Source: a virus. Taken from it: 32,408 nt of DNA. The translations under genes and the position numbers were made by a program. Below are positions 1,225 through 30,289 of this stretch, one piece after another; within the stretch, counting starts at the first letter, position 1, and every line of letters starts with the position of its first letter. The stretch covers positions 1-32,408 of the IMG/VR virus record IMGVR_UViG_3300030060_004061. One strand, written 5' to 3'. Under the pieces are notes generated by a model, which was given only the letters and a program-made list of their open reading frames with translations, made no database searches and was not told the DNA's origin.

Positions 1225-2883
1225 ATGGGCGGTTTTTTTATCCCGGCGCAGCCAGACACGCCAGAGCTAAGACAGAATTACTTCGAGGTTACTGATGCAA
1301 CCACTGCGCAGGTTCTGGGGGCGACTCTTGGTCAAACGCTCTATGAAAACCCTTTGGCATCGGCCATGCGGTCCATTGAGTATCTGACTAACAGGGGAAA
1401 AGGGCGCAAGCTTTCCGCTCAAGAATGGGAAGAAAGTGAATTTTTTCGGAAGGGATTAACCATTCCAGATGACGGCATCAATGAGGCGGCCGCATCAATA
1501 TTAGCAGAAAGGCATGACCAACGTGCTGTGCGCAACCTTGTGTTGCAACGCTCCCCAGGAGGATTTGGCCTAGCCGCGAGTCAGTTCGCTGTCGGGCTGG
1601 TTGGCACTGCATTTGACCCTTTGAATGTAGCGGCATCTTTTATACCAGTTGTAGGGCAGGCGCGATTCGCCACGCAAATTGCCAAATATGGCAAGGGCGT
1701 AGCTCGAGCAAGAAAGGGCTTGGTGGAGGGCGCGGTAGGCGCAGCCGCGGTGGAGCCGATTGTGCTGTCTACAGCGGCGCTCGAGCAGAACGAGGATTAC
1801 ACCTACGCTACTGCATTTATGAATATAGCTTTTGGTTCTGTGCTTGGTGGCGGGTTGCACGTGGTTGGCGGCAAGTTTTCAGACGCGCTCGAAAAGGCCA
1901 ACCCAAAAACAGTGCGGGCTTTGCAAGAAAATGCTGTATCCAAGATGGTACAGGGGCAAGAAATTGAACAGAACCTGACAGTCAGACAAGACCCACAAAT
2001 GCGGAGCAACCCAATATTCCGCGATGTAACAGAGGTCCGTCAGGGTCAAGCGGACCTGCCTGCCATGCTACCGAAAAAAGGGAAAGCATACCCAGATGAG
2101 TTGCGGATTGCCTATAGGGAGGATGCCAGGCCACAGAGCATTACCAAGTTTATTAGGTCTATCGGAGGCATCCTGCGAGACGACCCTAACGCTGCTGATG
2201 TGCGCGCGGCTATGGGTGGCAAAGACACCTTGTTAAGGAAGTCGCCAAAGCGTAAAGGGAAACCACTGCCTCCAGAGCAAAAACCTTTAGACAAAGTCCG
2301 CGAAGCAGCCGAAGAGGCTGGCTATCTGCGTGAAGGCTCTGATATTAACGATTTGCTAGCCGCCATCGAGAGTGATGCAAATGGTAATTTTGTGTATCCG
2401 ATTGCAGACGCTGACTTTCCTGCGCGTCTTGAGCAACAGCTTACAATTAAAGACGAGCTAGAAAGATACGACATCGACCCCCGGGGCTACACAGACAAAC
2501 AAGTTGAACAGATTCTTGAAGACTATAGGCGGGTAGACGAAGTCCCTGAGGATATCCCAGCGGGGCTAACCGAAGATGATTTCTTTGCCGCCTTGCAGCG
2601 TGAGCAAGATAATCTTGGCGAGTCTCTTGATGTAAAAGATTTTGAGGCCCGCATGAGCGAAGCCGACGAAGGCGTCAAAGCGTTTGAAAAAGATATGTTA
2701 GTAAGACTGCAAGAAGAAAACGAACGCCTCGAGGATGACATTCGCTACTTTATAGATAGCGAACAGTTGGGCGCAGAAGTGCAAACAGAGATTGAGGCGT
2801 ATAATCGCCTCGGGCAAAAAGCCGACGAAGGCTACAGCGTTGCCTTAAGGGCGGCTCAAAACTGTGTACCAGGAGAGTTGTAA
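1225..2883 (+). CDS. Internal virion (ejection-type) protein, first of two very large ones
   Basis: This 552-aa protein starts 8 bp after the previous stop. Residues about 110-145 and 165-215 are rich in Gly, Ala and Val (for example FAVGLVGTAFDPLNVAASF), suggesting segments able to enter a membrane. The rest is acidic and helical, with strongly charged coiled-coil-like sequence near residues 430-520. Such segments are typical of proteins carried in podovirus heads and ejected into the cell envelope. The stop overlaps the next start (TAATG), which points to translational coupling. The start ATG at 1225 is not preceded by a strong ribosome site, so coupling with the upstream gene is likely. 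No enzyme motif is seen. Function is inferred from composition and position. Confidence 0.7.
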   Translation: MGGFFIPAQPDTPELRQNYFEVTDATTAQVLGATLGQTLYENPLASAMRSIEYLTNRGKGRKLSAQEWEESEFFRKGLTIPDDGINEAAASILAERHDQRAVRNLVLQRSPGGFGLAASQFAVGLVGTAFDPLNVAASFIPVVGQARFATQIAKYGKGVARARKGLVEGAVGAAAVEPIVLSTAALEQNEDYTYATAFMNIAFGSVLGGGLHVVGGKFSDALEKANPKTVRALQENAVSKMVQGQEIEQNLTVRQDPQMRSNPIFRDVTEVRQGQADLPAMLPKKGKAYPDELRIAYREDARPQSITKFIRSIGGILRDDPNAADVRAAMGGKDTLLRKSPKRKGKPLPPEQKPLDKVREAAEEAGYLREGSDINDLLAAIESDANGNFVYPIADADFPARLEQQLTIKDELERYDIDPRGYTDKQVEQILEDYRRVDEVPEDIPAGLTEDDFFAALQREQDNLGESLDVKDFEARMSEADEGVKAFEKDMLVRLQEENERLEDDIRYFIDSEQLGAEVQTEIEAYNRLGQKADEGYSVALRAAQNCVPGEL

Positions 2884-5423
2884 TGTATAAATGCGTGACT
2901 GACATCGTTAGGGCCGCCGCCCAAGAAGGGCACGAAATTACCGAAGAGGAAGCAACCGACATCCTTGACGCCATTGCTGGCGACATTGAGAAGCGCATCG
3001 GCAAAATATATTCTCAATCTCAAGAAGATGAGATTGCTTTGCGTCGAATTAAGTTGCACAAGCAGGCCAAGATTAACGCGGCCCTTCAAAAGCGTAACTT
3101 CCTCATCAACCAGAAGCGCTTAGCTTCCATCCGCCAGCGTGTCTCTGATTATGTGAGCGAGGGGCGTGGTACAGCAGACCAGGCTATCTACGACATTATG
3201 GTGGGCTCTCTAAAAAATTATCGTAGCGGCAGATTAAGTGTAGATTCGCGTAGGCAGGGCATCCTTAACGACGGTGCCGGGCTGCTTCTGGCGGAGCTTG
3301 AAAGTAAAAACCTTGTGGGAGCATTTGAATCTGGGGAGCTGGATGAACTTATTTACAAAGCGATGTTTGATGCGGGCCCGAGCGCAAGCCCGGAAGCGCA
3401 GGAAATTGCAAACGCTATCCACAAAGTGCAAAAGAACTTGCTCGACCGAAAAAACCGCGCTGGGGCAAACATTTTTGAGTTGATAAACTATGTCGTGAGA
3501 CAAATGCACGACCCCAACCGGTTGCGCGATGCTGGGTTTGACAAGTGGTACGACGACATTTTGCCGCTGTTGGACAAGGCAAAGACATTTGACGGTATTA
3601 GCGGTGCGGCAAAAAAGCGGGAGTTTTTGCGAGAAGCCTACAACCACCTCGAGAGCGGCAACTTCCAAAAAACTTCTTCCGTGTTCGGCGAGGATGGCAA
3701 GCCAGACCCACTAACAGCATTCAAGGGGCAGGCCAACCTAGCTAAAAAGCTTAGTGGCTCCAGGGTGCTACATTTCAAAGATGGGGCATCATCTTTCAAA
3801 TATGCGGAACAATACTCCGGCAAGCCCCTTATCACCTCAGTGCTCGATAGCATTGCTAACGACGCTCAGTCAATCGCGCTGATGGAGGAGCTTGGCACTA
3901 ACCCACAAGCAATGCTGACCCGACTGATTGACGAGTACAACATTGAGGGCATGGCTAAAAAACGGCTTGAAAACGGCATGAAGGAGCTAGATGGCACAAC
4001 AAGAGCCGTTGGGGCCCAGCGCACAAGGGCTATGGGCTTAGATGGGGCAGCTATCTCTGCATCTGCAAGGGCAATTCAAAATATGTCCAAACTGGGGTTT
4101 GCTACAATTTCGTCTTTTTCGGACATCGCCTCCAAGGCGACATTGTTACAACGTGAGTCGGGCCGCAGTTTTTTGGAGTCGTATAACATTGCCATCATGG
4201 ATGTGTTTAAAGCGTTCAACGACAAGCAAAAGAAAGAGTTTTCTTATTTGCTGGGCACCGGCACAGATGCGTTTATGGGCAGTATTCATTCAAGGTTTGG
4301 TGCCGATGACCAGTTGCCGGGCCGCTTCTCGAAAGCTCAACAAATATTTTTTAAATTAAACGGGATGGAGTTTTGGAACGGTGCCCAGAAAGACGGCTTG
4401 GCCAGGGTGTTGGCAGCAGACCTGTACCTAAATACTAAGAAATCATTCTCATCTATCCCCGAATCACAAAGGCGGACGATGGCCCTGTATGATATTGGTG
4501 AGCCAGAGTTGCGTATGTTCCGCAAGCTCGACACCAAGGCACCGGACGGCAATAATTATATACTTGCCGCCATGATTAACGACCTCGAAGACGCCGATGT
4601 TGACCAGGCAGCGGCGGCTATGTTTCAGCGCACAGAAGTGACGCCAGAGATGCGGCAAACATATAAGGACGAGCTGCGAACCAAGCTTTCTGCTTACTAT
4701 GCCGACAGTGCTGACGCCGCCGTGCCAACACCAGGCGCGCGCGAACGCAACATCATGAATCAAGGAACCGAGCGCGGGACGCCACTTGGAGAGGCGTTGC
4801 GCATGATTATGCAGTTCAAATCATTTCCAATTACTTTTGTGACAAAAGGTCTGTATCGGCAGTATTACGGAAAACAAGCGCAGGGCAAGTCTGGCGCGCT
4901 CGGGATTGTGCAACTTATCACCGGCATGACAGCTATGGGTTACGTGTCCAACGCCACAAAGGACATTCTAAAAGGCCGCGAACCTCGGGATGTGTTTACA
5001 CGAGAGCGGGCGTTCTCAGGTTTGGCGGAAGCCATGACAGCCGGTGGTGGCCTTGGCATCTACGGTGACTTCCTGTTTGGCGAATACAACCGTTATGGTC
5101 AGTCTCTGACACAGACAATCGCTGGCCCTACGTTTGGCATGGTTGACGACATCGCGGGTGTTTACAGCAGCATGATGAGCGGTGAGTTTTCCAAGGCCGC
5201 CAGCAAATCAGTTAACCAAGCATTTCGGTTGATTCCGGGGCAAAACTTGTTTTGGGCAAAGTTCGGTATTGACTACTTACTGTTGTACGGTTTGTCGGAA
5301 GCTGCCAACCCAGGATACACTGAAAGGCTGGAGCGCAGAGTTGAAAAAGAAACCGGCAGCGAGTTTTTTCTATCGCCCTCAAAACACGGCGGCGGCATCC
5401 CAGGTGCGCTTGGTATGACTTAG
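2883..5423 (+). CDS. Internal virion (ejection-type) protein, second and larger one
   Basis: This 846-aa protein has its start overlapping the preceding stop (TAATG). The N-terminal third is highly charged. The C-terminal half contains a segment typical of large podovirus internal or polyvalent proteins: helical sequence near residues 390-560, then MQFKSFPITFVTKGLYRQYY around residue 640, followed by a Gly/Ala/Met-rich hydrophobic stretch (GIVQLITGMTAMGYVS) near residue 675. The conserved-looking FKSFPI region is familiar to me from phage internal virion proteins of this class. Related phages often encode one protein covering both this gene and the previous one, so the two may work as a split pair. 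No lytic transglycosylase motif is visible. Confidence 0.7.
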   Translation: MYKCVTDIVRAAAQEGHEITEEEATDILDAIAGDIEKRIGKIYSQSQEDEIALRRIKLHKQAKINAALQKRNFLINQKRLASIRQRVSDYVSEGRGTADQAIYDIMVGSLKNYRSGRLSVDSRRQGILNDGAGLLLAELESKNLVGAFESGELDELIYKAMFDAGPSASPEAQEIANAIHKVQKNLLDRKNRAGANIFELINYVVRQMHDPNRLRDAGFDKWYDDILPLLDKAKTFDGISGAAKKREFLREAYNHLESGNFQKTSSVFGEDGKPDPLTAFKGQANLAKKLSGSRVLHFKDGASSFKYAEQYSGKPLITSVLDSIANDAQSIALMEELGTNPQAMLTRLIDEYNIEGMAKKRLENGMKELDGTTRAVGAQRTRAMGLDGAAISASARAIQNMSKLGFATISSFSDIASKATLLQRESGRSFLESYNIAIMDVFKAFNDKQKKEFSYLLGTGTDAFMGSIHSRFGADDQLPGRFSKAQQIFFKLNGMEFWNGAQKDGLARVLAADLYLNTKKSFSSIPESQRRTMALYDIGEPELRMFRKLDTKAPDGNNYILAAMINDLEDADVDQAAAAMFQRTEVTPEMRQTYKDELRTKLSAYYADSADAAVPTPGARERNIMNQGTERGTPLGEALRMIMQFKSFPITFVTKGLYRQYYGKQAQGKSGALGIVQLITGMTAMGYVSNATKDILKGREPRDVFTRERAFSGLAEAMTAGGGLGIYGDFLFGEYNRYGQSLTQTIAGPTFGMVDDIAGVYSSMMSGEFSKAASKSVNQAFRLIPGQNLFWAKFGIDYLLLYGLSEAANPGYTERLERRVEKETGSEFFLSPSKHGGGIPGALGMT

Positions 5424-10141: not shown

Positions 10142-10569
10142 GGATTATACAAATTGTTTTCGCAATGTCTCTTATGGGATTCGCGGCCTGTGACCGTGTC
10201 GACTTGTCAGACATTTCTACGGCGTCTGGCGCGTCTAGTGCGGCGCTGGGCACGGCTGTTATTACGGCCAACCCCGTTGCTATAGGTGCGGCGGCTACCG
10301 CTGGTGGGCTGGCAGGGGCGGCGTTGGTTGAAGACGACAAGAGCCTGACAACCGAACAAATTAAAGAGGTGGACAACCCGTGGCAAGCCCTGCTCATTGC
10401 CTTTGACCAGGTTCTTGCCCACGCTTTTGAGATTGTCATTGCCATTGGCATAGCTGTTGTGGGGATGCCCATGCTATTCTCTTATTTGCTGGGCCGTTTC
10501 AGACAGCGCCCCGAGGACCGTAAACAGATTCAGGAGCTAACCACAAGAGTGGCGAAGATGAGGGAATGA
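10120..10569 (+). CDS. Putative lipoprotein with C-terminal transmembrane segment
   Basis: The ATG at 10120 is chosen over an upstream alternative at 10078 because it places a clear signal sequence first: basic residues, a hydrophobic core and LMGFAAC with Cys24 as a possible lipidation site. The product is 149 aa. A Gly/Ala-rich region follows (residues 35-75), then a hydrophobic span near 112-136 (IVIAIGIAVVGMPMLFSYLL) and a charged coiled tail. It overlaps the holin-like gene by 22 bp and the next gene by ATGA. A lipoprotein next to a holin suggests an envelope role in lysis, spanin-like perhaps, but no spanin motif is evident. The lipobox is imperfect (Phe at -3). Confidence 0.65.
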   Translation: MDSTFKVRIIQIVFAMSLMGFAACDRVDLSDISTASGASSAALGTAVITANPVAIGAAATAGGLAGAALVEDDKSLTTEQIKEVDNPWQALLIAFDQVLAHAFEIVIAIGIAVVGMPMLFSYLLGRFRQRPEDRKQIQELTTRVAKMRE

Positions 10570-10748
10570 CAAAGCGCAAGTCTACAGTTAACAAGGCTGG
10601 TAATTACACCAAGCCCACCATGCGGAAGAACCTGTTCAACAAAATTAAGGCAGGCGGTAAGGGTGGCAAGCCTGGCCAATGGACAGGGCGCAAGGCGCAA
10701 ATGCTGGCCAAAAAGTACAAAGCCAAGGGAGGCGGTTACCGCGACTGA
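10566..10748 (+). CDS. Small basic protein, DUF5872-like
   Basis: This 60-aa protein starts within the previous stop (ATGA). It contains GGKGGKPGQWTGRKAQML, then AKKYKAKGGGYRD. This pattern matches a small conserved basic family I recall from bacteria and marine phages (DUF5872-like). It is strongly positive, so nucleic-acid binding is plausible, for example genome condensation or packaging, but no function is established. It is the first of a run of basic microproteins at the end of the late block. Confidence 0.75.
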   Translation: MTKRKSTVNKAGNYTKPTMRKNLFNKIKAGGKGGKPGQWTGRKAQMLAKKYKAKGGGYRD

Positions 10749-10750
10749 CC

Positions 10751-10945
10751 ATGCAGCATGCCTTCCTCCTCTTTGTTTTTCTTGGCACGGGGGAAGACAA
10801 GAAAATGGTTAGCAGCGACCTATACTTTCGCAACCTCAACGAATGTGTCTGGTACGCTCAGACACTGCACAACCAGGGCAAAACGATTACAGCCTACTGC
10901 TTGCCCAAATTAATAGCAGATGGCTCTAACGTGAAGGTGTACTGA
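10751..10945 (+). CDS. Small exported-type protein with two cysteines
   Basis: This 64-aa protein has a short hydrophobic N-terminus (MQHAFLLFVFLGTG) that looks like a signal peptide. It is followed by a soluble part with the pattern YFRNLNECVWYAQTL and ITAYCLPKLI, where the two Cys could form a disulfide outside the cytoplasm. A GGAGG site lies about 17 bp upstream, inside the previous gene, so coupling is also possible. The stop overlaps the next start (TGATG). Similar small Cys-pair proteins occur at 16151-16345 and 18607-18807. Function unknown. Confidence 0.65.
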   Translation: MQHAFLLFVFLGTGEDKKMVSSDLYFRNLNECVWYAQTLHNQGKTITAYCLPKLIADGSNVKVY

Positions 10946-11379
10946 TGCTGGCGGAAATCGCTGCCGCCAACGCGGCCTTTGGAATCATCAAGCAAGCTAT
11001 CAGCAACGGCAAGGAACTGTCCTCTGCCGCGTCCGCGATTGCGCAGTTTGTGGGCGCAAAAGAAGGTCTGCAACGCAAAATTGACAAAAAGGGCTCACAC
11101 CGCACCGACCTCGAGGAGTTTATGGCGCTCGAGCAACTGCGGGGGCGTGAGGAAGAACTTAAGCAACTTATGATTTATGCGGGTCGTCCGGGTTTATGGT
11201 CCGATTGGCAGAAGTTTCAAGCGAAGGCCAGGGTTGCCCGACGCGAAGCGGAGTTAGAAGCAGAACGGAAGCGCAGACGGTTAATGAACGTGATAATTAT
11301 TACGTTTTTCTTTATACTGGGACTGGCAATACTGGGCTCGATTCTGGCTCTGGCCCTACATGCAGCGGGTAAATTGTAA
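10945..11379 (+). CDS. Coiled-coil protein with C-terminal membrane anchor
   Basis: This 144-aa protein overlaps the previous stop. Its N-terminal region (AAANAAFGIIKQAISNGKEL) and the motif ELKQLMIYAGRPGLWSDWQ are familiar to me from conserved hypothetical proteins in marine phages. A charged helix (residues about 85-112) leads into one strong membrane span at about 114-138. The tail-anchored arrangement and the lysis-like neighbourhood suggest action at the inner membrane. No enzymatic motif is visible. Confidence 0.7.
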   Translation: MLAEIAAANAAFGIIKQAISNGKELSSAASAIAQFVGAKEGLQRKIDKKGSHRTDLEEFMALEQLRGREEELKQLMIYAGRPGLWSDWQKFQAKARVARREAELEAERKRRRLMNVIIITFFFILGLAILGSILALALHAAGKL

Positions 11380-11639
11380 TGGCATTAAAAAAATCACAGC
11401 GTAGCCTCAAGTCTTGGACAAAACAAAAATGGAGAACCAAGAGTGGCAAACCGTCCACGCAGGGTCCGCAAGCAACAGGGGAAAGATATCTACCGTCTCG
11501 AGCAATTAAGTCCTTGTCTCCCCAAGAATATGCGGCGACCACGAGAGCCAAGAGGAAAGCTACTAGAGCCGGAAAGCAAGTATCTAAGCAACCAAAGAAA
11601 ATTGCAGCCAAAACCAGAAAGTACAGAAAGGTGAAGTAA
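11379..11639 (+). CDS. Very basic small protein
   Basis: The ATG overlaps the preceding TAA (TAATG). The 86-aa product is about one third Lys and Arg, with SQRSLKSWTKQKW at the N-terminus, a central RYLPSRAIKSLSPQEYAATT and a KRKATRAGKQ tail. I recall similar short proteins in phage late regions. The SLSP-EYAAT segment suggests a short folded core between basic arms. DNA binding or head filling is a reasonable guess. Codon use looks like its neighbours. Confidence 0.7.
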   Translation: MALKKSQRSLKSWTKQKWRTKSGKPSTQGPQATGERYLPSRAIKSLSPQEYAATTRAKRKATRAGKQVSKQPKKIAAKTRKYRKVK

Positions 11640-11640
11640 G

Positions 11641-11775
11641 ATGGCTATGTCTAAGGCGCAAAAGGCAAAGGTTAAGAAGGTGGCAACAAAGCTCAAGGGC
11701 GCGTCAAAAGCTCACGCTGGTCAGGCAAAGACACTTATGGGTATGATGAAGAAAACAAAGAAGAGGGGCAGGTGA
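11641..11775 (+). CDS. Basic microprotein (44 aa)
   Basis: An ATG one base after the previous stop begins a 44-aa Lys-rich peptide (MAMSKAQKAKVKKVATKLKG..., ending KKTKKRGR). Its stop overlaps the next start (TGATG). It consists of one likely amphipathic helix plus a basic tail and has no acidic residues at all. It belongs to the compact chain of basic late proteins. No function can be assigned. Confidence 0.65.
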   Translation: MAMSKAQKAKVKKVATKLKGASKAHAGQAKTLMGMMKKTKKRGR

Positions 11776-11921
11776 TGCCAGGCCCGTACTCTAACAAACA
11801 AAAGAAAATTGCTCGTGTAGCTCCGCCGCGTAACAAAATTACCGGCGCGGACTTTGCTAAACTACGTGGCAAGAAAAAGCCCACTATGGGCGCAGCCAAG
11901 AAAAAGAAACGTCGTGCCTAA
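11775..11921 (+). CDS. Basic microprotein (48 aa), MPGPYSxKQKKIA family
   Basis: The start overlaps the preceding stop (TGATG). The product opens MPGPYSNKQKKIARVAPPRN and continues ITGADFAKLR before a Lys/Arg tail. I recall short phage proteins with this opening and the ITGADF-KLRG motif, so it appears conserved rather than random. It overlaps the next gene by 8 bp in another frame. Role unknown; nucleic-acid binding is possible from charge alone. Confidence 0.65.
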   Translation: MPGPYSNKQKKIARVAPPRNKITGADFAKLRGKKKPTMGAAKKKKRRA

Positions 11922-12222
11922 GACACCGGCATGGCAGCGCAAGGAAGGCAAGTCGCCGTCGGGTGGTTTGAACGCCAAAGGCAGGGCTTCTGCTAGGCGA
12001 CAGGGCATGAACCTTAAGCCGCCTGTGAAGAGCGGCGATAACCCTCGCAGGGCTAGTTTCTTAGCACGCATGGGCAACATGAGGGGGCCAGAGCGGAAGA
12101 ATGGCAAACCAACGCGCTTACTACTTTCACTCCGCGCATGGGGTGCAAGCAGCAAGGCTGACGCAAGGAAGAAGGCGGCAGCTATCTCCAAACGGAACAA
12201 AGCCAAGAAAGGAAAGACATAA
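11914..12222 (+). CDS. Basic protein, DUF6321-like
   Basis: The likely start is GTG at 11914, giving MPKTPAWQRKEGKSPSGGLN. This matches the usual N-terminus of a small conserved phage and marine bacterial family (DUF6321-like). A longer upstream reading from 11854 would overlap the previous gene by 68 bp and is less likely. The 102-aa product carries SGDNPRRASFLARMGNMRGP and GKPTRLLLSLRAWGASSKAD before a Lys-rich tail. It is very well conserved as I remember the family, yet its function is unknown. The high Gly, Arg and Lys content suggests nucleic-acid contact. Confidence 0.75.
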   Translation: MPKTPAWQRKEGKSPSGGLNAKGRASARRQGMNLKPPVKSGDNPRRASFLARMGNMRGPERKNGKPTRLLLSLRAWGASSKADARKKAAAISKRNKAKKGKT

Positions 12223-12344
12223 TGCCAATGGGAAAAGGGACTTACGGCTCAAAGAGAGGCCGTCCACCAAAGTCATCAAAGATGAAGAACCAAACAGCCA
12301 CAGCTATGGCGATGAAGAAAAAGAAACCAATGAAGCGTAAATAA
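12222..12344 (+). CDS. Basic microprotein (40 aa), last gene of the late block
   Basis: The ATG overlaps the previous TAA (TAATG). The product reads MPMGKGTYGSKRGRPPKSSK, then a Met/Lys tail ending KKKKPMKRK. The MxxGKGTYGSxxGRPPK opening is one I recall from other phages. GRPPK resembles an AT-hook core (GRP), so minor-groove DNA binding is possible. A strong terminator hairpin follows 20 bp after the stop. Confidence 0.65.
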   Translation: MPMGKGTYGSKRGRPPKSSKMKNQTATAMAMKKKKPMKRK

Positions 12345-12364
12345 AAAAAGAACTTTTTCAAAAG

Positions 12365-12400
12365 ACCCCCACCGGCGGGTTCTCATAAACCGGTGGGGGT
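12365..12400. terminator. Strong hairpin terminator between convergent blocks
   Basis: An 11-bp perfect stem, ACCCCCACCGG (12365-12375) with CCGGTGGGGGT (12390-12400), is separated by a 14-base loop. It lies 20 bp after the last late gene and before the end of the leftward block. Read leftward it is followed by CTTTTG and further AT-rich bases. It probably stops both transcription units. Confidence 0.8.
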
Positions 12401-12406
12401 TAGTTA

Positions 12407-19049: not shown

Positions 19050-19430
19050 ATGACCAAAATAACCAAAACCAGAACAGACGAAATCATTGCGCTCTTATCC
19101 GATGGTCATAGCCTGGTGCATGCTTGCAAGAAGACAGGCATATCCAGAACGGGGCTATACAAGCGTATGGGGGCTGATGAGGAGCTGCGGGGCGCTATCT
19201 ACTCTGCACGTGCTCAAAGCGCTGAGAAGGCTTTAGACGAGCTTGACGGCATGTATTTGAATGCACTCGAGGGGCGCAGGCGCTACGACCCCAACATCCT
19301 CCGGGACTATGCGCAACACGTGCGCTGGAAAGCAAAGACATCTATGCCGGAGCAATACGGTGAGCACAAGAGTAGGGCTGGCGTCGAGGTTAGTGACGGC
19401 ACAGTGCGCATCTTGTGGGAGACTGACTAA
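19050..19430 (+). CDS. terS: Small terminase subunit
   Basis: The start is ATG 19050 after an AGAGGA site; a longer frame from 18918 would run through the repeats and is rejected. The 126-aa protein begins with a helix-turn-helix (about residues 17-40, GHSLVHACKKTGISRTGLYK) like many DNA-binding small terminases, followed by helices for oligomer formation and HVRWKAKTSMPEQYGEH. It would recognise the packaging site and load the large subunit, whose gene overlaps its stop (TAATG). The repeats at 18897-18953 lie directly upstream. Confidence 0.85.
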   Translation: MTKITKTRTDEIIALLSDGHSLVHACKKTGISRTGLYKRMGADEELRGAIYSARAQSAEKALDELDGMYLNALEGRRRYDPNILRDYAQHVRWKAKTSMPEQYGEHKSRAGVEVSDGTVRILWETD

Positions 19431-20716
19431 TGGACGTTAAGATTCCCTATAAGCCCCGTCCCTTGCAAAAGGAAATGCACAAGGAGTTAAAAAGATGGAA
19501 TGTGCTAGTGATGCACCGCCGCTTCGGCAAGACGGTGTGGGCAGTGAATCAGCTAATCAAGACGACGCTGACTTGCCCGTTGCCACGACCGAGGACGGCT
19601 TTTGTAGCTCCTACCTTTGCCCAGGCGAAGCGAATAGCGTGGGACTACGTCAAGTTCTACGCGGGGGTCATCCCTGGCGTTCAGTTCAACGAGACAGAAC
19701 TACGAGCTGACTTTCCTAACGGCGGCAGACTTATGCTGCTGTCTGCTGAAAACCCGGACGCCCTTCGTGGCATCTATCTTGATGAGTGTGTCTTTGACGA
19801 GTTTGGCATGCAGAACCCAAGGGTATGGGGGGAGGTTGTGCGCCCGGCGCTATCTGACAGGCAGGGCTCGGCATGTTTCTTGGGCACCCCGGCAGGCCAC
19901 AACCATTTTTTTGATTTGCTTGAGACAGCCAAAGGCCAGATTGCCGAAAAGAGCGATGACTGGTATTTTAAGATTTGCAAGGCCAGTGAGACAGGGATTG
20001 TAAAAGAAGGAGAGCTTGAGGCTGCACAGGCACAGATGACGCCGGAGCAGTACGAGCAAGAATACGAGTGTTCCTTCACAGCGGCAATCATTGGCGCATA
20101 CTACGGTAAGTTACTGACCGATGCTGACGACAGCGGCAGAATAAGCCGGGTGCCATATGACCCTGCCTATCCCGTGCATACAGCTTGGGACTTGGGTATC
20201 AACGACGCAACAGCCATCTGGTTTGCGCAAGTGTTCCGTGGGGGCGCAATTCATGTTATTGATTATTACGAGAGTTCTGGGGTTGGTCTCGACCATTATG
20301 CAGATATACTCTCAAAGAAAGACTATCATTACGGTGACCACCTCGCTCCTCACGATGTTGAAGTCAGGGAACTGGGGTCAGGCAAAAGCAGAGTGGAGAC
20401 GGCTTATTCGCTCGGAATCAAATTCAGAGTCGTCCCCAAAATGAAGGTAGCAGATGGCATCAACGCTGCGCGTATGTTAATACCTAAATGTTACTTTGAC
20501 AGAGACAGGTGCGGCGACGGCATTGAAATGCTTCGCCAATACAGGCAAGAGTGGGATGACAGGAGAAAAATTTTCAGAGACCATCCGCGGCATGATTACA
20601 CGTCTCATGCAGCCGATGCTTTCCGGTATCTTGCTGTTGGCCTGGAAAATCGCGCAAACTTCCAACGACCTGCACAGCAAGTTGCACAGATGGAATACAA
20701 CCCTTTCACGCTATAG
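19430..20716 (+). CDS. terL: Large terminase subunit (packaging ATPase and nuclease)
   Basis: This 428-aa protein has all expected parts. The ATPase has a Walker A-like HRRFGKT (29-35), a Walker B IYLDECVFDEFG with Asp123-Glu124, and a coupling motif GTPAG (152-156). The C-terminal RNase-H-type nuclease shows TAWDLGINDATAIWF with Asp254, HDVE with Asp309, and HAADAFRYL with Asp396. It is compact compared with many terminases but complete. It pumps DNA into the prohead and cuts the concatemer. The start overlaps the TerS stop. Confidence 0.95.
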   Translation: MDVKIPYKPRPLQKEMHKELKRWNVLVMHRRFGKTVWAVNQLIKTTLTCPLPRPRTAFVAPTFAQAKRIAWDYVKFYAGVIPGVQFNETELRADFPNGGRLMLLSAENPDALRGIYLDECVFDEFGMQNPRVWGEVVRPALSDRQGSACFLGTPAGHNHFFDLLETAKGQIAEKSDDWYFKICKASETGIVKEGELEAAQAQMTPEQYEQEYECSFTAAIIGAYYGKLLTDADDSGRISRVPYDPAYPVHTAWDLGINDATAIWFAQVFRGGAIHVIDYYESSGVGLDHYADILSKKDYHYGDHLAPHDVEVRELGSGKSRVETAYSLGIKFRVVPKMKVADGINAARMLIPKCYFDRDRCGDGIEMLRQYRQEWDDRRKIFRDHPRHDYTSHAADAFRYLAVGLENRANFQRPAQQVAQMEYNPFTL

Positions 20717-22559: not shown

Positions 22560-24146
22560 ATGGCTAAAGCATTAGACCACGTTAGACGTTTCGAGCACCT
22601 TAAAACACGGCGAGACACCTGGGACACTCACTACCAGGAGCTTGCCGATTACATGTTGCCGCGCAAGGCAGACATCGTAAAGAAGCGTTCTCGCGGCGAA
22701 AAACGCATGGAGCTGATATACGACGGCACTGCGTTACAAGCCATTGATTTAATGGCAGCTTTTCTGCACGGTATGCTCACCAGCGGGGCCTCTCCTTGGT
22801 TCCACCTTGATGTAAAAGACGACGCTATCAACCGGGATGATGATGTGCGCGAATGGCTACAGGATAGCAGCATGCGCATGATGCAAGCGTTCCAGCGCTC
22901 TAACTTTGAGACAGAAGTGCATGAGGCGTATGTGGACCTGGTTGTGTTTGGCACGGCCTGTATGTTCTGCGAAATGTCAGACAAAACTTTGCGGTTTAGC
23001 ACCCGCCATATTGGCGAATATTATGTGCAAGAAGACCAGCACGGGATGGTTGATACGGTTTACCGGCTCTACAAAATGACAGCAAATCAAGCTATTGAAA
23101 GATTTGGTGTGGAAAATGTCGGTGACTTTATACGCAAGCGTGCAGAAAAGAACGGCGACGAAGAGGTCGAGATACTGCACGGGGTTATGCCCCGCCGCGA
23201 CAGGGATGTAACCCGTCCCGATAACTTAAACATGCGGTTTATGTCTGTGTATGTGTGCATGCAGACTAAGATGGTAATTAGCGAGGGTGGTTTCGAGGGG
23301 CTGCCTTACGTGGTGCCGCGCTTCCTAAAAGCTACCGGGGAAGTAATGGGTCGCAGTCCTGCGATGACAGCGCTGCCTGACGTTAAGATGTTGAATCTTA
23401 TGTCAAAAACCATTATCCAGGCGGCTCAAAAGCAAATTGACCCGCCACTGTTAGTGCCCGATGACGGGTTTCTTTTGCCAATCCGCACACAGCCAGGCGG
23501 CCTAAACTTTTTCCGCTCGGGTTCGCGTGAGACAATCACACCTCTGAATACTGGGGCAAATATCCCGATTGGTTTAAGCATGGAAGACCAGCGTCGTGCG
23601 TCTATACGACAAGCATTTTACGTGGACCAGATACTGACTGCTGGCTCCCCACAGATGACCGCGACAGAAGTTATTCAAAGGCAGGAAGAGCGTATGCGCG
23701 TTATTGGGCCTGTTCTTGGCAGGCTTATGAACGAGATGCTGCGCCCACTAATTGACCGTGTGTTCTCGCTTATGCTGCGCAACAACATGCTCGCTCCCGC
23801 CCCTGAGGTTCTCCAAGGCCGTGACATCGACATTGAATACGTTTCACCGCTGGCACGGGCGCAAAAATCTAGCAGCCTAAACAATACTATGCGGGCTCTT
23901 GAGATTCTGTTGCCTTTGGCTCAGAGCCTGCCGGTAGGCGACCACATTGACCCTGACGGACTTGTGCGCCATGTAACAGATGCCCTGGGGGTTCCGAAGT
24001 CCACACTACGGTCACAACGCGAGATTGATGAAACCCGTGAGGCACGCGCACAGGCAGAAGCCGAACAGGTTCAGCGCCAGCGTGACCAAGAAGATGTTTA
24101 CACAACAGCACAGGCCGCACAGGCTGTGAGGATGGTGCAACAGTGA
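22560..24146 (+). CDS. Portal (head-to-tail connector) protein
   Basis: This 528-aa protein has the usual length and layout of podovirus portals (head-to-tail connecting protein, PF12236 type). Visible features are DTHYQELADYMLPRKADIV near the start, LMAAFLHGMLTSGASPWFHL about residues 62-85, and the C-terminal QRQEERMRVIGPVLGRLMNE typical of the wing/crown helices, followed by an Ala/Gln-rich tail. Twelve copies would form the DNA channel at the head vertex and bind the terminase. The stop overlaps the next GTG start. Confidence 0.95.
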   Translation: MAKALDHVRRFEHLKTRRDTWDTHYQELADYMLPRKADIVKKRSRGEKRMELIYDGTALQAIDLMAAFLHGMLTSGASPWFHLDVKDDAINRDDDVREWLQDSSMRMMQAFQRSNFETEVHEAYVDLVVFGTACMFCEMSDKTLRFSTRHIGEYYVQEDQHGMVDTVYRLYKMTANQAIERFGVENVGDFIRKRAEKNGDEEVEILHGVMPRRDRDVTRPDNLNMRFMSVYVCMQTKMVISEGGFEGLPYVVPRFLKATGEVMGRSPAMTALPDVKMLNLMSKTIIQAAQKQIDPPLLVPDDGFLLPIRTQPGGLNFFRSGSRETITPLNTGANIPIGLSMEDQRRASIRQAFYVDQILTAGSPQMTATEVIQRQEERMRVIGPVLGRLMNEMLRPLIDRVFSLMLRNNMLAPAPEVLQGRDIDIEYVSPLARAQKSSSLNNTMRALEILLPLAQSLPVGDHIDPDGLVRHVTDALGVPKSTLRSQREIDETREARAQAEAEQVQRQRDQEDVYTTAQAAQAVRMVQQ

Positions 24147-24364
24147 ATGACGATGAAAAGCTCAAAGCAATTGAAAAGCTAAAGTCTATGTACCGCGAAT
24201 CATTTAAGAGCGAGAACGGGCAAAAAGTTTTGTTTGACCTTGAGGCCCGCTGCAACTTGCGCAGCATTAGCTATGTGGCAGGCGACCCAAATGCCACGGC
24301 GTTTGAGGAGGGTAAGAGGGCCGTTATCCTCCACATTCACAACATGATAATTGAGGAGTCATAA
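24143..24364 (+). CDS. Bbp19-like small head-region protein
   Basis: The start is GTG 24143, overlapping the portal stop. The 73-aa product (MYRESFKSENGQKVLFDLEA, later FEEGKRAVILHIHNMI) matches the pattern of the Bbp19 family described from Bordetella phage BPP-1 (F-s-eG-kVL-dL ... F-eG-R-v-l-I). It is usually found between portal and scaffold. Biochemical role unknown. The stop overlaps the scaffold start region. Confidence 0.75.
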   Translation: MNDDEKLKAIEKLKSMYRESFKSENGQKVLFDLEARCNLRSISYVAGDPNATAFEEGKRAVILHIHNMIIEES

Positions 24365-25206
24365 TGTCAGAAGAAGCAGTCGAACAGGTAGCCCAGCCTG
24401 AGGGCACTATGCTGGAAACCCCAGCAGAAGTGGCAGAAGGCGGGTCTGGTAACGATTTCTTGTCAACCATACCGGAGGACTTGAGAGAGCACCCCAGCCT
24501 CTCCCCTATCAAGGATGTGGGCAATCTTGCCCGCTCATATGTAAACGCCCAACGCCTCATTGGCGCTGATAAGGTGCCACTACCCGTAAACCCAACAGAT
24601 GAGGATTTGGATAACATCTACAGCAAGCTAGGCCGCCCTGACAGTGCCGACGGATACGAAATTGCTGTTGACGGAAATATTGTCACAGAGGATGTAGCCA
24701 AATCTTACTCTGACGTAGCGCATAAGCTGCGCCTTACGCCTGACCAAGCAAGCGGGGTGATAGAGTATTACCGTTCTATGGTCCAGGAAACGGGCAGCAT
24801 GAGTGAGGCGGCAGAGACTCAACAGCGCAATGATACAGAAATGTCGTTGCGCAAGGAGTGGGGTGATGAGTTTGATGCCCGCATTGAAGATGCTGGTAAC
24901 ATTGCGAAACAATTTGGTGGCAACGGAATATTGGACATGCGCCTATCCGATGGGACTAAGGTGGGTAACCACCCTGATTTCATTAAGGCATTTGCAAATA
25001 TGGCAGAGTTCAGGCAAAGTGTCACAAGTGAAGACACAGTTTCTGATGCGTCGATTTCTAACGTAGCTACCCGTCAGGCAGCGCAACAAGAGATTGACGC
25101 AATTATGAACGACAAGTCACACGCTTATTGGGACAGAAAGAATCTGTCTGGCAGGCAGCGTGCGATTGAAAGAATGCAAGAGCTGATGGAAGTCGTACAT
25201 GGGTGA
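24364..25206 (+). CDS. Scaffolding (capsid assembly) protein
   Basis: This 280-aa acidic protein is mostly helical, with an N-terminal low-complexity part, then NLARSYVNAQRLIGADKVPL and VNPTDEDLDNIYSKLGRPD, and a C-terminal helix of the kind that binds capsid protein (KNLSGRQRAIERMQELM). The motif SYVNAQKLIG plus L-RPDSADGYE is familiar from phage scaffold and capsid-assembly proteins. It directs prohead formation and is lost from the mature head. It overlaps the next gene by 8 bp. Confidence 0.85.
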   Translation: MSEEAVEQVAQPEGTMLETPAEVAEGGSGNDFLSTIPEDLREHPSLSPIKDVGNLARSYVNAQRLIGADKVPLPVNPTDEDLDNIYSKLGRPDSADGYEIAVDGNIVTEDVAKSYSDVAHKLRLTPDQASGVIEYYRSMVQETGSMSEAAETQQRNDTEMSLRKEWGDEFDARIEDAGNIAKQFGGNGILDMRLSDGTKVGNHPDFIKAFANMAEFRQSVTSEDTVSDASISNVATRQAAQQEIDAIMNDKSHAYWDRKNLSGRQRAIERMQELMEVVHG

Positions 25207-25456: not shown

Positions 25457-26353
25457 ATGTCTACACAAGTCAATACGGCATTTGTGCAACAGTATTCTGC
25501 AAATGTGCAGATGCTCTCACAGCAGATGGGTTCCCGTCTGCGTGACGCGGTGAGCATTGAGAATGTTGTTGGGCAACATGCTTTCATAGACCAAATCGGC
25601 AAAGCAACTGCCGTGAAGCGCACGACACGCCACGGGGATACTCCACAAATGGACACCCCGCATTCCAGGCGTCGTCTTTCGCTTGATTCCTACGAGTATG
25701 CAGACCTGGTTGATGACCAGGACAAAGTCCGCATGCTTATCGACCCGACTTCCTCCTATGCCCGTGCCGCTGCTGCTGCAATGGGACGCGCGATGGATGA
25801 GGTTATTATCTCGGCTGCAACCGGCGCTGCTACCACAAACGGTGGTGTAGAGAGCGGTGGCGTAGCCAGCTCGACTGTCAGTCTTGACGCGACCAACAAT
25901 TCCGTTGGTTCTTCTTCCTCAAACGACGGCCTGACTATTGCCAAGTTGCGTGAAGCAAAGCGTAAGATTGACCTTAACGATGTTGACCCGTCGATTCCGC
26001 GTTACATCGCTGTTGGCCCGAAGCAGATTGAAGACCTGCTCGGAACAACCGAAGTAACATCAAGCGACTTCAACACCATTAAGGCTTTGGTACAGGGCGA
26101 CGTGGATACCTTCATGGGCTTCCGCTTCATTATGACCAACCTCCTGGCTATTGATAGCAACGACATTCGTAAGTGTTTTGCTTGGGCAGAGGATGGCATC
26201 ACCCTGGGCGTTGGCAAAGACATCATGGCCCGCATTGATGAGCGTGCAGACAAGGGTTACGCAACCCAAGTTTACTACTGCATGGACATCGGCGCGGTTC
26301 GTATGGAAGAAGCCAAGGTCTGCCAAATCTTTTGTGATGAAACCCCAGACTAA
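25457..26353 (+). CDS. Major capsid protein
   Basis: This 298-aa protein starts seven bases after GAGGAG, one of the best ribosome sites in the block, as expected for an abundant protein. It has the opening FVQQYSANVQMLSQQMGSRL, then LDSYEYADLVDDQDKVRMLI and the C-terminal DKGYATQVYYCMDIGAVRME. This pattern matches the Phage_capsid_2 type (BPP-1 Bbp17-like) of HK97-fold capsids. The insertion of Gly/Ser/Thr at about 125-160 may be a surface loop. Confidence 0.9.
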   Translation: MSTQVNTAFVQQYSANVQMLSQQMGSRLRDAVSIENVVGQHAFIDQIGKATAVKRTTRHGDTPQMDTPHSRRRLSLDSYEYADLVDDQDKVRMLIDPTSSYARAAAAAMGRAMDEVIISAATGAATTNGGVESGGVASSTVSLDATNNSVGSSSSNDGLTIAKLREAKRKIDLNDVDPSIPRYIAVGPKQIEDLLGTTEVTSSDFNTIKALVQGDVDTFMGFRFIMTNLLAIDSNDIRKCFAWAEDGITLGVGKDIMARIDERADKGYATQVYYCMDIGAVRMEEAKVCQIFCDETPD

Positions 26354-27871: not shown

Positions 27872-30289
27872 ATGGCGCGTGTTTCAACTATTGTCACAAA
27901 TTTTCAAGCTGGGGAATTATCTCCGCGCCTTGAAGGCCGCATAGACTTACAAAAATATAACAGCGGTGCTCAGAAGCTGGAGAACATGCTGGTGTTCCCG
28001 CAAGGCGGTATTACGCGCAGACCCGGCACCAAGTACGCTGGCTCATCAAAAGATGGCGGCAAGGTGCGTATCATCAATTTTGAGTTTAGCGACGAGCAAG
28101 CATATGTGCTTGAGTTTGGCGCAAACTACATACGTTTTTACAAAGATGGCGGCATACTCACCGAATCAACCAAAACCATCACGGCTGCTACAGCAGCCAA
28201 TCCTGTTGTTATAACGTCCAACTCTCATGGCTTCAGCAACGGTGATAGGGTGTTTATCTCTGCCGTTGCTGGCATGGTTGAGCTTAACAACCGTGAGTTT
28301 ACTGTAGCCAACAAAACCACAAACACTTTTGAACTGTCGGGCATAAACGGCAGTGCGTTCACCGCATACAGCAGTGGCGGCACTGCGGGCAAGATTGTTG
28401 AGGTGACGACCACATACAGTGTTACAGAAATCTTTGAACTAAACCATGTGCAGTCAGCAGATGTTTTGTTCTTGGCTCACAAAGACCATGAGCCTGCAAA
28501 GCTGACGAGATTGACAGCCACCAGCTTCAGTCTGGCTGATATAGATTTTATAGATGGCCCCTACGAAGACGAAAACTCAACAACGACGACGATAACTGCA
28601 AATGCAAACACCGGCACAGTGACTTTGACCGCATCCGCTGATTTGTTTGATGCGTCTAAAGACGTTGGGTCTCTGTTCAGATTTAGAGATGTGATTGAGG
28701 TGTCTCATAGTGAATGGGCTACAGGTGACACATATTCTCAAAATGACATCATTCACTTCAACGGCAATGTTTACAAAAAGACAGATTCTGGTTCAGGAGA
28801 AGCGACAGGCGCACAAGCCCCTGTGCATCTCTCCGGCTCAGAGGTTTATGGAAACCACACCTGGCAATATCAACATAGTGGCACAGGTTTTGTAAAAATC
28901 ACTGCCGTTACAAACGCAACCACAGCAACCGCGGTGGTTCAGAATAGCGGAACTAACAGTCTTATCAATGACTTAGTATTGCCGGCAAATGCAACGGCAG
29001 GCACAACTCGTTGGTCGCGGGGCGCATTTAGCGTGCGTAACGGTTTCCCTAGAGCTATTGCCTTTTTTGAAGAGCGTTTGTTTTTTGCTGGCACAACAAC
29101 ACAGCCGCAAACAATCTTTGGCTCTGTGACGGCTGACTTTGAGAACATGACGCCTGGTACGAATGACGATGATGCCATCAACATTACGATTGCATCCGGT
29201 CAGGTTAATGTTATCCGGCATATGATTCCGGGTCGCTTCCTGCAAATTATGACAACAAGCTCGGAGTTCACGTTATCCGGCGGCACTGGCACTCAACCCG
29301 TAACGCCTACAAGCGTCAATGTTTTGCGTGAAACAACATTTGGTTCTGGTGACGTGCGTCCGCTCCGTGCTGGTGCAAGCACAATTATGGTGCAGAAGGG
29401 ATTGGAGAAGGTCAAAGAAGTCACGTTTGATTTGGATACTGACGGTTTAGTAGGCCGCGACCTGACCATACTGGCAGAACATCTGACACGTGGTGGCATC
29501 AGCGACATGGTGTGGCAACAAGAGCCGGAGCTTGTGCTTTGGTTTGTTCACTCTGACGGCACGCTGATTGGTCTGTCCTATGACCCGCAGAACCAGACTA
29601 TTGGTTGGCACAGTCATCCGGTAGGTAACAGCGGCATAGTTGAGAGCATAGCGGCCATCCCAAGCGGCGCAGAAGACCAGGTTTATCTGTCGGTCAAGCG
29701 CACTATTAACAGCGCTACTGTGCGGCATATTGTGTTCATGGAGAACATATACTTTGGCACCGACATAGACGATGCCTTTTATGTGGACTCTGGCTTGACG
29801 TATGACAGCACGGCCACAACTACCATTAGCGGCCTCAGTCACCTCGAAGGTGAGACCGTACAAATTTTGGCAGACGGCTCGGCGCACCCGGATAAGACTG
29901 TAAGTGGTGGCGCTGTCACATTGGACCGCAGCGCCAGCACAGTGCATGTTGGCTACTCCTACGACTCAAAGATGCAGACGCTCCGTCTTGAGGCTGGCGC
30001 TGATGATGGAGTGTCACAGGGCAAGATTAAACGTATCCACGGCGTTACTGTAAGGTTTATCGACACTGTTGGCGCGGAAGTGGGAACGGATGAGAACAAT
30101 ATGGACCGTATTCCGTTCCGTGACAGCAGCATGGCGATGGATAACGCGGTGCCCCTGTTTGATGGAGACAAAGAGATTTCGTTTCCTTCAGGATACGACA
30201 ACGACGCTAGGGTTTTTGTTAGGCAGACGCAACCGTTGCCAATGACTATTCTGGCAGTGATGCGGAGGTCTAACACATTCGATGCTTAA
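27872..30289 (+). CDS. Tail tubular protein B-like (tail nozzle/stabilisation)
   Basis: This 805-aa protein starts 1 bp after the previous stop. The N-terminus TIVTNFQAGELSPRLEGRID and LVFPQGGITRRPGTKYAGSS is the recognised opening of podovirus tail nozzle proteins (T7 gp12 / tail stabilisation type). A beta-rich insert (HGFSNGDRVFISAVAGM, then NTFELSGINGSAF) resembles an Ig-like or ubiquitin-regulatory module found in such proteins. It closes the tail and ejects DNA. It overlaps the next gene by 8 bp. Confidence 0.9.
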   Translation: MARVSTIVTNFQAGELSPRLEGRIDLQKYNSGAQKLENMLVFPQGGITRRPGTKYAGSSKDGGKVRIINFEFSDEQAYVLEFGANYIRFYKDGGILTESTKTITAATAANPVVITSNSHGFSNGDRVFISAVAGMVELNNREFTVANKTTNTFELSGINGSAFTAYSSGGTAGKIVEVTTTYSVTEIFELNHVQSADVLFLAHKDHEPAKLTRLTATSFSLADIDFIDGPYEDENSTTTTITANANTGTVTLTASADLFDASKDVGSLFRFRDVIEVSHSEWATGDTYSQNDIIHFNGNVYKKTDSGSGEATGAQAPVHLSGSEVYGNHTWQYQHSGTGFVKITAVTNATTATAVVQNSGTNSLINDLVLPANATAGTTRWSRGAFSVRNGFPRAIAFFEERLFFAGTTTQPQTIFGSVTADFENMTPGTNDDDAINITIASGQVNVIRHMIPGRFLQIMTTSSEFTLSGGTGTQPVTPTSVNVLRETTFGSGDVRPLRAGASTIMVQKGLEKVKEVTFDLDTDGLVGRDLTILAEHLTRGGISDMVWQQEPELVLWFVHSDGTLIGLSYDPQNQTIGWHSHPVGNSGIVESIAAIPSGAEDQVYLSVKRTINSATVRHIVFMENIYFGTDIDDAFYVDSGLTYDSTATTTISGLSHLEGETVQILADGSAHPDKTVSGGAVTLDRSASTVHVGYSYDSKMQTLRLEAGADDGVSQGKIKRIHGVTVRFIDTVGAEVGTDENNMDRIPFRDSSMAMDNAVPLFDGDKEISFPSGYDNDARVFVRQTQPLPMTILAVMRRSNTFDA

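Follow-up and report, generated by a model that had tools for sequence, protein, structure and literature searches.

Small basic proteins closing the late gene block of an aquatic phage: candidate nucleic-acid-binding mini-proteins associated with head and packaging genes

What the tiny and strongly basic proteins encoded at the end of an aquatic phage's late block might do is the question raised by this locus. The window, meaning the whole stretch of DNA analysed, is a 32,408-base IMG/VR virus record, and a nucleotide search with it matched only five distant phage records. A preliminary description had singled out six Lys/Arg-rich open reading frames (ORFs) joined in an overlapping chain. All six are present (gA and gD to gH; Table 1) and their unusual composition is borne out, with a K+R content of 28-35% and a pI of 11.05-12.0 against a K+R content of 5-20% (mean 11%) in 15 other genes of the window. 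The late placement also holds: the cluster closes the plus-strand late block and is followed by a hairpin, which a consensus scan did not pick up, and then by convergent minus-strand genes. The chain itself stands in part. The junctions from gC onwards are TAATG (C-D), a 1-nt gap (D-E), TGATG (E-F), an 8-nt overlap with a GTG start for gG (F-G) and TAATG (G-H) on inspection of the sequence, while gA joins its upstream ORF through ATGA and is followed by gB and gC, neither of which is basic. From these junctions and the gB/gC interruption, gD to gH form a tight chain of five genes, with gA set off from it. Pooled pN/pS values across homologues are 0.17-0.33 for the six genes (about 0.2 for gA), a signature of purifying selection that indicates that all six are translated and under selection.

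Table 1. Features of the window, with positions counted from its first base.
Feature	Position	Strand	Length	Description
Internal virion proteins	1225-5423	+		
gA	10566-10748	+	60 aa	First half of A-D family; phrog_17747, E 3.4e-34
gB	10751-10945	+	64 aa	Intervening; not basic, K+R 9%
gC	10945-11379	+	144 aa	Intervening; K+R 16%; C-terminal hydrophobic segment; phrog_32327
gD	11379-11639	+	86 aa	Second half of A-D family; phrog_14910, E 4.5e-35
gE	11641-11775	+	44 aa	Basic; homologues fused to gA N-terminus
gF	11775-11921	+	48 aa	MPGPYSNKQKK...ITGADFAKL
gG	11914-12222	+	102 aa	GTG start; DUF6321 (PF19846)
gH	12222-12344	+	40 aa	MPMGKGTYGSKRGRPPK; AT-hook-like
12-bp hairpin	12364-12401	.		Terminator-like; z -2.7; boundary between late operon and convergent minus-strand genes
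Terminase large subunit	19430-20716	+		
Head-tail adaptor (portal-type)	22560-24146	+		
Protease or scaffold-like	24364-25206	+		
Major head protein	25457-26353	+		
Tail	27872-30289	+		

The clearest relationship within the cluster is that between gA and gD. Neither has a family in Pfam or NCBIfam; both match PHROGs profiles of unknown function strongly. Our profiles were built on the 158 best-matching viral loci, on contigs that are often incomplete, and the pairing percentages therefore describe close relatives: gD occurs in 103 of these loci and gA in 90 of the 103, where it invariably precedes gD on the same strand and is fused to it in three. The named-phage records agree, all 13 gA matches lying among the 17 gD matches. 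A single gA-gD ORF is found in Hodr (L002:6985-7383), and the fusion is also seen in three IMG/VR loci and in many bacterial matches. With both PHROGs profiles matched and a pair or fusion in 90 of 103 loci, gA and gD are two halves of one family (here A-D) common to phages and bacteria, whereas PHROGs holds them as two. A gE-like sequence precedes gA within nine ORFs (L162, L163, L144, L152, L164, L166, L124, L101 and L102). The scan of viral contigs with gD gave at least about 600 matches among those listed. In 40 of the viral loci gG and gD are no more than 1.5 kb apart.

The same family is found on cellular chromosomes. A genome scan identified A-D proteins, mostly of about 165-180 aa, in Pseudomonas, Stutzerimonas, Methylobacterium, Sphingomonas and Azospirillum, and 7 of 299 sampled Pseudomonadota species carry one. 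In the two proteins tested (Pseudomonas and Sphingomonas) the C-terminal extension resembles Rho_N (PF07498) at a sub-threshold score of 19.9 bits against a cut-off of 24.9; this domain is absent from the phage A-D proteins. SAR11 single-cell genomes (L181-L221) encode the halves in permuted D-A order as one gene, mostly of 138-142 aa, and a D-A match was found in 8 of 60 sampled genomes of the SAR11 family. Most of these loci share as neighbours a cyclopropane synthase, DUF3833, SDR proteins, TspO and an oxidoreductase, a cluster that may resemble the photo-oxidative stress cluster of other Alphaproteobacteria. On another SAR11 single-cell contig (L174:5697-8246) an M15-type peptidase, gF, gA and gD abut apparent host genes; it is likely that these late phage-like genes belong to an integrated pelagiphage ending at the basic-gene cluster.

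The second group consists of gG and gH. gG matches DUF6321 over the entire model (positions 1-72 of 72) with 70.1 bits against a gathering cut-off of 28.5 (2.6e-19), and the opening TPAWQRKEGK, named in the preliminary description as conserved across marine phages, belongs to this domain, for which more than 590 viral-contig matches were listed. DUF6321 (phrog_4689) also ends long proteins of T4-like cyanophages (S-E7, S-SM1 GC 119 and S-CREM2 gp137), whereas gG is a stand-alone protein of 102 aa with a C-terminal helical extension. A literature search for DUF6321 found no paper, and one on small, lysine-rich virion proteins was unproductive. Three large genomes (L251-L253) among the 299 Pseudomonadota also gave weak DUF6321-like matches (E 5e-10 to 1e-8). 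The gH opening named in the preliminary description is real as well: MPMG(K/V)GTYG and an invariant GRP are found in 17 of 17 viral gH homologues. With its GRP core and basic flanks gH recalls AT-hook proteins, yet it scores 15.2 bits against a Pfam cut-off of 17.4 (PF02178), and the first Arg of the RGRP core is not kept among the 17 homologues, GRP being preceded by R, K, M or V. A weak match to phrog_29980 was also obtained. S-RIP2 carries a gH-type opening and DUF6321 in one ORF, followed by a gF-like ORF. In S-RIP2, at L007:4205-4717, a gF-like basic ORF is in frame with signal-peptide-like and outer-membrane-like sequence, which may reflect either a mis-called start or a real fusion.

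For gE and gF no match was found in Pfam or PHROGs. BLAST masks Lys-rich sequence, which is why it matched gF to one record only; local profiles, used in its place, recovered eight gF homologues, most of which start with a YSxKQKK-type motif, in line with the MPGPYSxKQKK opening named in the preliminary description. By eye gF resembles the YANIHAKRKRIAAGSGEK family, a likeness based on HTVC022P gp31 and S-RIP2.

Do the six genes form one unit? Members do recur across viral contigs and named phages from aquatic environments, as had been supposed, and the fusions A-D, E-A and H-G support a functional link among them. The idea of a fixed set of six does not survive. In HTVC104P and HTVC115P some 17 kb separate gG from A-D, gG occurs without A-D in HTVC022P, HTVC204P and S-RIP2, and A-D without gG in CRP-345; the set is therefore not a fixed operon. 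A-D is a near-strict pair, and gE and gF are more restricted in distribution. The surroundings of these genes are themselves enriched in basic proteins: across the 158 viral loci, of 550 other small ORFs situated up to 1.5 kb from gA, gD or gG, 158 have at least 25% K+R, as against 11 of 489 lying more than 4 kb away, so that basic small ORFs are 13 times commoner nearby. Only 2 of the neighbouring small ORFs are on the opposite strand, and some of the basic ones match DUF6496, DUF5824 or HNH_3. Since further basic families share their surroundings, the six genes are a sample from a larger exchangeable repertoire. Recurrent families within 1.5 kb include RPYPNL(V/I)DN, YANIHAKRKR, HNH_3-like, DUF6496 and DUF5824, together with a GDPNMxIK...RARH family that is Tlr6f/DUF5754-like by eye.

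Structure predictions suggest that the core members are more than polycations. AlphaFold2 gave a mean pLDDT of 86.9 and a pTM of 0.53 for an A-D fusion and 87.7 and 0.72 for gG. The underlying alignments were shallow, with 22 and 33 sequences respectively, and contain conserved non-basic residues in both cases. gA-gD and gG are thus probably small folded domains and not simple polycations. Sequence and fold searches of the PDB returned no match and no structural homologue with a known function, and no match to HU, histones or other described nucleoid proteins was found by Pfam, NCBIfam or PDB fold. In a search of viral models the A-D fold matched unnamed phage proteins and, partially, one protein annotated as ParB/Sulfiredoxin.

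To which process do these proteins belong? In dereplicated viral loci the annotated large neighbours of gG are mostly terminase, portal, head, scaffold, head closure, adaptor and tail genes, with portal, terminase large subunit and major head protein named among them and a methyltransferase, exonuclease, ferredoxin and amidase as the few exceptions. HTVC022P has its gH, gF and gG counterparts in consecutive order, flanked by scaffold and capsid; HTVC104P gp76 follows the capsid gene; and one further locus (L218) reads capsid-like gene, A-D fusion, two basic ORFs, gG and tail-like genes. Passages of a pelagiphage RNA-seq study that sorts genes into temporal classes (PMC12753301) do not name the genes of this cluster, so lateness in HTVC022P is judged from gene position.

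Evidence from virions comes from the cyanophage S-CREM2, in whose purified particles published mass spectrometry detected ORF137 (108049-109521) through 4 unique peptides, at a coverage of 4.1% (PMC10665884, Table 3). This protein, gp137, carries DUF6321 at residues 415-488 (3.5e-10, over the Pfam cut-off) joined to a 400-aa non-basic region, and its gene sits between the small and large terminase subunits; given the coverage of 4.1%, the peptides need not derive from DUF6321. The adjoining basic protein gp136 (L249:14802-15515; 237 aa, K+R 22%) is represented by 8 peptides in the virion proteome. Counting against a virion role, the DUF6321 protein of S-SM1 (GC 119) is left as hypothetical in its GenBank record, and the virion proteome of this phage was measured, as passages of PMC3037559 report. 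A 'structural protein' label on S-E7 GC0119 (L003:3660-5249), apparently without experimental basis, was discarded as evidence because S-SM1, with measured virions, leaves the same cluster hypothetical. Each window protein yields just 1-3 tryptic peptides of usable length, so that absence from tryptic virion data is weak evidence.

Our preferred reading, which we hold tentatively, is that these are late, head- or packaging-associated, nucleic-acid-binding mini-proteins, some of which enter the virion. The small basic proteins would be expressed together with the late genes, the core ones as separately folded domains, and would bind nucleic acid while the head is being assembled and filled with DNA; their target would presumably be the phage genome. 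gA and gD would act as a single two-domain unit to which gE is an optional N-terminal add-on, gH and gG would form a second unit, and in at least some lineages the domain would be carried into the virion. We infer the binding of nucleic acid, the action at packaging, the late timing and the presence in the phage's own virion; the charge speaks for binding, as do the Rho_N-like tail of the bacterial A-D homologues and the HNH_3-type proteins among the basic neighbours. The partial match of A-D to a ParB-annotated phage protein also counts in favour of this reading. The internal head proteins IPI-III of T4 are likewise small and basic and are made alongside head proteins, yet no family match between them and the window proteins was found. 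Besides the S-SM1 record and the low S-CREM2 coverage, several observations count against this reading: the Rho_N scores are sub-threshold; the PDB searches found no structural homologue with a known function; both here and in HTVC204P, where it is near likely lysis genes, the cluster ends the late block and is not adjacent to the capsid gene; and the Pseudomonas and SAR11 chromosomal homologues act without a phage head.

The last point leads to the alternative that the proteins work inside the infected cell rather than in the particle. As late basic proteins they could attach there to DNA, RNA or ribosomes, of the host or of the replicating phage, aiding takeover or protecting nucleic acid before lysis. 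The chromosomal A-D genes with their Rho_N-like tail, and the SAR11 D-A gene in a conserved host cluster, imply that the family works in cells without virions, and the scarcity of tryptic peptides means that absence from virion data says little either way. We nevertheless consider this explanation somewhat unlikely, given how strongly gG is linked to head and packaging genes and the presence of a DUF6321 protein in S-CREM2 virions. Ribosome binding in particular was dropped because Pfam, NCBIfam and fold searches found no similarity to ribosomal or ribosome-binding families.

One could also imagine that the basic surface meets acidic phage proteins instead of DNA, the members being small scaffolding, connector or terminase cofactors. 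Genes placed between those for scaffold and capsid, for terminase and portal, or for the two terminase subunits would suit such assembly factors, as would the predicted folds with their conserved non-basic residues and the fusion of DUF6321 to longer late proteins. However, members shift freely in position, some far from head genes, and the many unrelated basic families that share their place are more easily explained by a common charge-based role, which makes contact with proteins alone an unlikely account.

Protamine-like bulk condensation, in which many packaged copies neutralise a real share of the genome charge, is very improbable, because one copy of each member sums to a net charge of +112 against about 64,800 phosphates in 32,408 bp, so that offsetting 10% of them would take about 58 copies of each, and because the folded domains with conserved non-basic residues differ from protamines and S-CREM2 gp137 yielded just 4 peptides. 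The precedent for such packaging is PBCV-1, where basic DNA-binding proteins are packaged at hundreds to thousands of copies, but the same source states that there is no evidence of basic proteins contributing much in dsDNA phages (PMC3281028). PBCV-1 A278L and A282L are likewise basic modules carried with the genome of a dsDNA virus (PMC3281028), a likeness that we offer as an analogy only, and the PBCV basic adaptor domain has no Pfam match among the window proteins.

The families are very common in aquatic phages, with at least about 600 matches listed in each viral scan, yet they lack a known function, and proteomics by the standard tryptic route is biased against such basic proteins. Through the A-D family, phages are connected with genes on the chromosomes of SAR11, Pseudomonas and Methylobacterium, which offers an entry point for laboratory work. 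DNA binding in the head, if shown, would test the claim that dsDNA phages package their genomes without basic proteins. A bolder possibility, which we regard as rather improbable, is that many aquatic phages coat or organise their genome, in the head or just after injection, with mini-domains from an exchangeable, chromatin-like kit, one of whose core units, A-D, is shared with bacterial chromosomes and lies in a putative stress cluster in SAR11. If true, it would overturn the notion of protein-free DNA packaging in tailed phages.
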